Assembly (NCBI GenBank): GCA_004297935.1
Contig: SCRE01000005.1
Location: forward strand, 1-64,000
From: Microbacteriaceae bacterium
GTDB taxonomy: Bacteria; Actinomycetota; Actinomycetes; Actinomycetales; Microbacteriaceae
Length of the DNA: 64,000 nucleotides
Reading direction: 5' to 3'
Position numbers and translations under genes: made by a program. Within the stretch, counting starts at the first letter, position 1. Each line of letters begins with the position of its first letter. Below are positions 54,503 to 54,658 of this stretch, piece after piece. The notes below the pieces were generated by a model. The model saw nothing but the letters and a program-made list of their open reading frames with translations. It did no database searches and had not been told where the DNA came from.

Positions 54503-54579
54503 CGATATTCCCGCTTCTGCGGGATGATCCAAGTAGTCGACTCGGCTTGGTGTGCTCCTCGGTTGTCCGGGGATATTGT
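54503..54579 (+). ncRNA. Candidate mini-CRISPR / CreR-like Cascade guide RNA: pseudorepeat 1, about 20-nt spacer, pseudorepeat 2
   Basis: Pseudorepeat 1 (ends 54530): CCCGC-TTCT-GCGGG hairpin followed by ATGATCC, identical to the 3' handle of the array repeat. Pseudorepeat 2 (54552-54579): GTGCTCCTCGGTTGTCCGGGGATATTGT, 17/28 identical to GTGCTCCCCGCGCAGGCGGGGATGATCC, with a re-paired stem CCTCGG/CCGGGG. Confidence 0.75.
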
Positions 54580-54591
54580 GACCCTCACAAT
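54575..54591. promoter_or_regulatory. Palindrome ATTGTGA-CCC-TCACAAT upstream of the cse1 promoter
   Basis: Perfect 7-bp arms; no trailing T-run. Confidence 0.6.
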
Positions 54592-54631
54592 GGGGGGTGA
54601 CGGATTACAGCTTTTCAGTTAGCGTTTTACA

Positions 54632-54658
54632 TATAATTGAGAATAGTAGACGACTTGG
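54632..54658 (+). promoter_or_regulatory. Putative cse1 -10 box (TATAAT 54632-54637) and adjacent protospacer-like site (54645-54658) for the mini-CRISPR spacer
   Basis: Consensus TATAAT; AGTAGACGACTTGG compared with spacer AGTAGTCGACTCGG. Confidence 0.7.

Follow-up and report, generated by a model that had tools for sequence, protein, structure and literature searches.

Autorepression of cas genes by CreR RNAs has been described for systems of types I-B, I-E and V-A (work of Liu et al. in Cell Host Microbe 31:1481, 2023, as covered in the reviews PMC13131331, PMC12948488 and PMC12737573). According to these reviews, CreR represses cas promoters through partial complementarity and answers to crRNA abundance, the repression being relieved by anti-CRISPR (Acr) proteins, and guides of this type also occur in CreTA/CrePA modules (PMC13131331, PMC12948488, PMC12737573). 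In CreTA, pairing of CreA at positions 1-5 and 7-11 suffices and positions 6 and 12 are irrelevant, and in haloarchaeal CreA the PAM lies within a promoter element, the BRE (PMC8501985). Within Cascade, the bases at every-sixth positions are flipped out and unread (PMC5904413). In Escherichia coli, 5 bp of pairing can be enough for Cascade to bind, and interference requires more than 18 bp. Furthermore, Shmakov et al. reportedly described in 2023 mini-arrays of a regulatory kind, whose spacers show partial complementarity to promoters of cas8, and Workman et al. are said to have reported in 2021 the autorepression of Cas9 by a long-form tracrRNA. Here, the type I-E locus on contig SCRE01000005.1 of a Microbacteriaceae bacterium was analyzed in a stretch of 64,000 nucleotides (the window), following up a first-pass annotation according to which the spacer of a mini-CRISPR matches the start region of cse1.

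Results

The type I-E system of the window comprises cas3 (50548-53490, +; Cas3_HD and Cas3_C domains), cse1/casA (cas8e; 54677-56311, +; PF09481, E=1.2e-113; TIGR02547), which heads the Cascade operon and is presumably the gene under regulation, the other Cascade genes cse2, cas7e, cas5e and cas6e (56308-59505, +; Pfam/NCBIfam matches) and cas1. The ORF at 60394-60810 we take to be cas2 from reading its sequence. The main CRISPR array (60841-63990, minus strand; repeat GTGCTCCCCGCGCAGGCGGGGATGATCC(C)) has 52 repeats within the window and 32-nt spacers. Its repeats are degenerate at the cas2-proximal end (60841-61063), so that the leader probably lies at the far end, beyond 63990, with the array running toward the cas genes. 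Between cas3 and the mini-CRISPR, the minus strand carries a HicBA-like pair (53816-54411), which consists of an ORF with a HicA toxin domain (54202-54411; PF07927) and a HicB-like partner (53816-54214), assigned by context only and having no Pfam match. The HicA ORF lacks an ATG, GTG or TTG where its start would be expected and reads LKAREVNRM from a CTG at 54411, 7 nt after AGGAG. Just upstream of hicA, at 54414-54448, two near-palindromes (TTTAGCTCCTAAA and TTTAGCTGACTAAA) were found, which are plausible operator sites of the antitoxin.

The mini-CRISPR (54503-54580) consists of two repeat-like units inside the cas locus, between hicBA/cas3 and cse1, and no Rfam family was found for it. The first degenerate repeat, psiR1 (54503-54531, +), comprises a hairpin, TCCCGC-TTCT-GCGGGA, followed by the 5' handle ATGATCCA (54524-54531, +). 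Overall, psiR1 is identical to the array repeat at 12/29 positions; its handle equals the array repeat handle ATGATCC+C at 7/8 bases, ATGATCC being identical over 7 nt. Next comes the spacer AGTAGTCGACTCGGCTTGGT (54532-54551, +), which has 20 nt, whereas the spacers of the main array in the same genome have 32 nt. The second degenerate repeat, psiR2 (54552-54580, +; 17/29 identity to the array repeat), retains the GTGCTCC block and a 7-bp hairpin, and its final 8 nt are degenerate. Both hairpins form in the RNA fold; the hairpins and array-like handle required for Cas6 processing are thus kept, and cutting is predicted. A perfect inverted repeat, ATTGTGA-CCC-TCACAAT (54575-54591), begins in the degenerate psiR2 handle and has no downstream T run; it is possibly an operator or a processing end.

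The spacer matches a 14-nt segment of the cse1 promoter, AGTAGACGACTTGG (54645-54658, +), inside a target site at 54642-54664 (+) that is made up of the PAM AAT (54642-54644) and the protospacer (54645-54664). Pairing covers positions 1-5, 7-11, 13 and 14, with mismatches within the first 14 positions only at 6 and 12, and the match ends beyond position 14. The target starts 8 bp past the putative -10 hexamer TATAAT (54632-54637, +), that is, at the predicted cse1 start. Sequences and coordinates given in the first-pass annotation for the spacer, AAT, the promoter match and TATAAT all proved exact; its consensus -10 hexamer holds as sequence, but no good -35 hexamer accompanies it, so that the cse1 start site remains a prediction. 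Moreover, no sigma-70-like promoter scored in a scan of 54380-54700, hence neither a promoter of the mini-CRISPR nor a cse1 -35 was identified. In the main array, the 29th repeat nucleotide is mostly C, with T in 6/52 (about five had been noted) and A in 2/52; phage matches to the array spacers, sought to fix the PAM directly, were not found.

Since the site had been found post hoc, the match might be coincidental and the mini-CRISPR a decayed array remnant, in line with the degeneracy of both repeats. This was examined with 20,000 dinucleotide shuffles of the 120-nt cse1 promoter, searched on both strands. At least 12/14 identity arose in 0.08% of the shuffled promoters, which makes the earlier rough estimate of about once in a thousand a fair one, and a full 10/10 match over positions 1-5 and 7-11 in 0.025%; the seed match together with AAN occurred in none of the 20,000 shuffles. 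In the 3.9-Mb genome, an AAN PAM combined with the seed site occurs once, in the cse1 promoter. The loose seed pattern has a third copy in the genome (C39:46937), which was discarded because it is preceded by GGT and not by AAN. When the 52 array spacers were compared with the cse1 promoter in three registers each, the best match was 8/10. The cas3 promoter contains no seed match to the mini-CRISPR spacer.

The adjoining HicA toxin domain, along with the similar guides of CreTA/CrePA modules, raises the alternative that the mini-CRISPR encodes a CreA-type RNA antitoxin or cargo guide, which would silence the neighboring HicBA (53816-54411, minus strand) and thereby make CRISPR addictive. We regard this as very unlikely: the cse1 promoter is the only site in the 64-kb window with an AA/AG PAM and at least 9/10 seed match, and HicBA was rejected as the guide's target for want of a seed match at the hicA promoter. 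Moreover, the gap of only 18 nt between the 14-nt match and the start codon of cse1 is too small for a creT gene.

The decisive evidence against coincidence is independent replication in other genomes. A sample of 240 distinct cse1 loci from the same phylum as the window genome was searched for an upstream hairpin with a type I-E handle and then for any site matching the following bases at positions 1-5 and 7-11; AAN was demanded of 9/10 matches only, 10/10 matches being chosen without regard to the PAM. This yielded 19 distinct mini-CRISPR/cse1-promoter pairs, that of the window and 18 others, in two classes of the one phylum (the window's family, two further families of its order and one other class). 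In all 19 pairs, the seed matches at 9-10/10 positions in the own cse1 upstream region. The PAM is AAN in 18/19; the exception, L017, has AGC and is also the only 10/10 match lacking AAN. The L017 target is located upstream of its own mini-CRISPR, the guide of which would therefore repress its own transcription along with cse1. As a control, the spacers of the first 15 pairs were compared with the regions of other genomes, resulting in one 10/10 match in 6.1 million positions and none with AAN. Weak secondary matches on the opposite strand of L206 and L210 were set aside as background. Within the window's own family, no comparable element turned up in the other cse1 loci examined, and no relatives were confirmed in a metagenome scan or in a first genome scan with a single Cse1 protein as query. 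With 18 further pairs contradicting it, coincidence can be dismissed: the match between spacer and promoter is not due to chance.

Spacer and promoter also change together. In genus g119, three different spacers (L016, L066 and L073) each match their own promoter, and among eight related loci of another family the spacer-target identity was 94% for own and 47% for swapped combinations. In pairwise comparisons of these eight loci, seed differences affected spacer and target together 154 times and one partner alone 17 times, so that the co-variation proposed as a check in the first-pass annotation is indeed present. This bears on a further alternative, in which the element would be a phage-derived RNA anti-CRISPR (Racr) that mimics repeats and so sequesters Cas6/Cas7. 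Racrs, too, are repeat-like RNAs that bind Cas proteins; the element studied here, however, is part of the host's cas locus, and its two repeats enclose a spacer aimed at a cas promoter; sequestration also leaves the co-variation in relatives unexplained, which renders a Racr exceedingly improbable.

The pairs are alike in build as well, with a spacer of 20 or 21 nt in 17/19; the second repeats of L066 and L073 are indistinct. The parts that would be retained in the mature RNA are conserved, namely the psiR1 handle (mean 6.5/7, in part a selection criterion) and the psiR2 5' block (mean 6.4/7, not a selection criterion), and the psiR2 stem is likewise conserved. The parts that would be lost on cutting by Cas6 are decayed, with 4.5/7 for the psiR1 5' block and 3.6/7 for the psiR2 handle. 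As decay is restricted to what Cas6 would remove, a decayed remnant with a coincidental match has next to no probability left. The mini-CRISPR of G175 shares its handle, ATGAGCC, with the array of that genome, and the G at position 29 of this array's repeat is consistent with AAG as the PAM of the target.

Positions 6, 12 and 13 had not been used to select matches. A match is present at position 6 in 5/19 pairs and at position 12 in 8/19, the corresponding counts among the nine minimally paired cases being 1/9 and 0/9. Selection for mismatches at these positions is unsupported, as the probability of counts this low, P(<=c), in the minimal class is 0.30 and 0.075 under chance. Both positions thus look unconstrained rather than deliberately mismatched and, judged by sequence, fit flipped-out, unread bases. 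The mismatches at exactly 6 and 12 emphasized in the first-pass annotation are therefore true of the window pair but not a general pattern. Position 13 is matched in 18/19 pairs, including 8/9 of those with minimal pairing (P=1e-4), and from position 14 onward matching is at chance level in the minimal class; the conserved match therefore appears to be 1-5, 7-11 and 13.

With regard to placement, a -10-like hexamer (at least 5/6) lies near the target in 7/19 loci as compared to 7% of background windows. Of the 14 AAN targets on the minus strand, 11 have a G after the TT of the PAM complement, which yields the TTG of a -35 hexamer (P=4e-5). In L204-L211, L228 and L229, which belong to a single family of the window's order, the match spans most of the 20 nt and the PAM complement opens a TTGACA-like -35, the two sharing bases; TATNNT follows exactly 17 bp beyond this -35 in that family's eight loci. 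Targets fall within promoter elements, the PAM complement GTT lying inside TTGACA-like -35 hexamers in relatives.

Discussion

Judged by the sequence comparisons, the best explanation is that the mini-CRISPR encodes a CreR-type RNA for Cascade-guided autorepression of the cse1 operon, and we consider this highly probable. The mini-CRISPR would be transcribed on the cse1 strand and cut by Cas6e at the two hairpins, releasing a crRNA-like RNA composed of the handle AUGAUCCA and a 20-nt guide, which would be loaded into the locus's own Cascade. This complex would then recognize AAT as its PAM, pair over about 11-12 bases where cse1 transcription is predicted to begin (54642-54664) and, once bound, block transcription of the Cascade operon; Cas3 would not act because the pairing is too short. 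Competition from ordinary crRNAs should make repression stronger whenever there is a surplus of Cascade. We infer this chain of transcription, Cas6 cutting, loading, binding, repression and feedback, the feedback on Cascade level or occupancy by analogy to published CreR work. Some caution comes from E. coli, where off-target binding of Cascade via short seeds left nearby expression unchanged; those sites, unlike a regulatory target, were not selected for regulation.

The RNA might instead mainly sense Acr proteins, with a constitutive repression that is lifted upon inhibition of Cascade in place of tuning to the Cascade level. The CreR reviews describe relief by Acr proteins as well as by crRNA abundance; such sensing is compatible with the autorepression proposed here, and the sequence does not separate the two. 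As the main role of the RNA, we deem it highly improbable.

The mechanism is already known as CreR, a status that the first-pass annotation did not mention. What may be new is the inclusion of position 13 in the conserved match, the fixed spacer length of 20-21 nt and the PAM built into the -35 of many relatives. That a fixed 20-21 nt spacer, a 1-5/7-11/13 match and a PAM embedded in the -35 represent design rules of actinobacterial type I-E CreR is a tentative proposal that may well not hold. If true, a spacer of 20-21 nt, about two Cas7 units short of 32 nt, would build a shortened, repression-only Cascade, and a PAM within the -35 would mean that the promoter cannot escape repression without loss of activity. 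The locus would be a clear example of a natural RNA-guided autoregulatory circuit, spotted by eye in one genome and confirmed by comparison. The 19 natural spacer/promoter pairs would show how much pairing evolution keeps for repression by Cascade without cleavage, which is relevant to the engineering of type I-E repressors and to the ways in which CRISPR systems keep self-damage in check and detect inhibition.

The mini-CRISPR resembles the mini-arrays reportedly described by Shmakov et al. in 2023 in that two repeat-like units accompany a single spacer directed at the promoter of cas8 or of a cargo gene. The long-form tracrRNA of Cas9 is similar in principle, in that a CRISPR effector reportedly represses its own promoter via a short natural guide, as proposed here; there, a type II effector and a tracrRNA-derived guide are involved, here a mini-CRISPR. 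With CreA, the mini-CRISPR shares two divergent degenerate repeats, an 8-nt handle, the same 1-5/7-11 seed logic, an apparent indifference to positions 6 and 12 and a PAM inside a promoter element (PMC8501985). CreA, however, represses a toxin RNA gene, and the promoter targeted here drives cse1, with no ORF between target and cse1 and no toxin gene fitting there. CreR and the locus at 54503-54580 have in common a mini-CRISPR near cas genes, a crRNA-like RNA (predicted here), partial complementarity to a cas promoter and occurrence in type I-E. As in CreR, the limited complementarity lies beside a PAM (AAT, with 18 further examples) and is uncoupled from a toxin, the adjacent hicBA having no seed site and cse1 following directly after the target.
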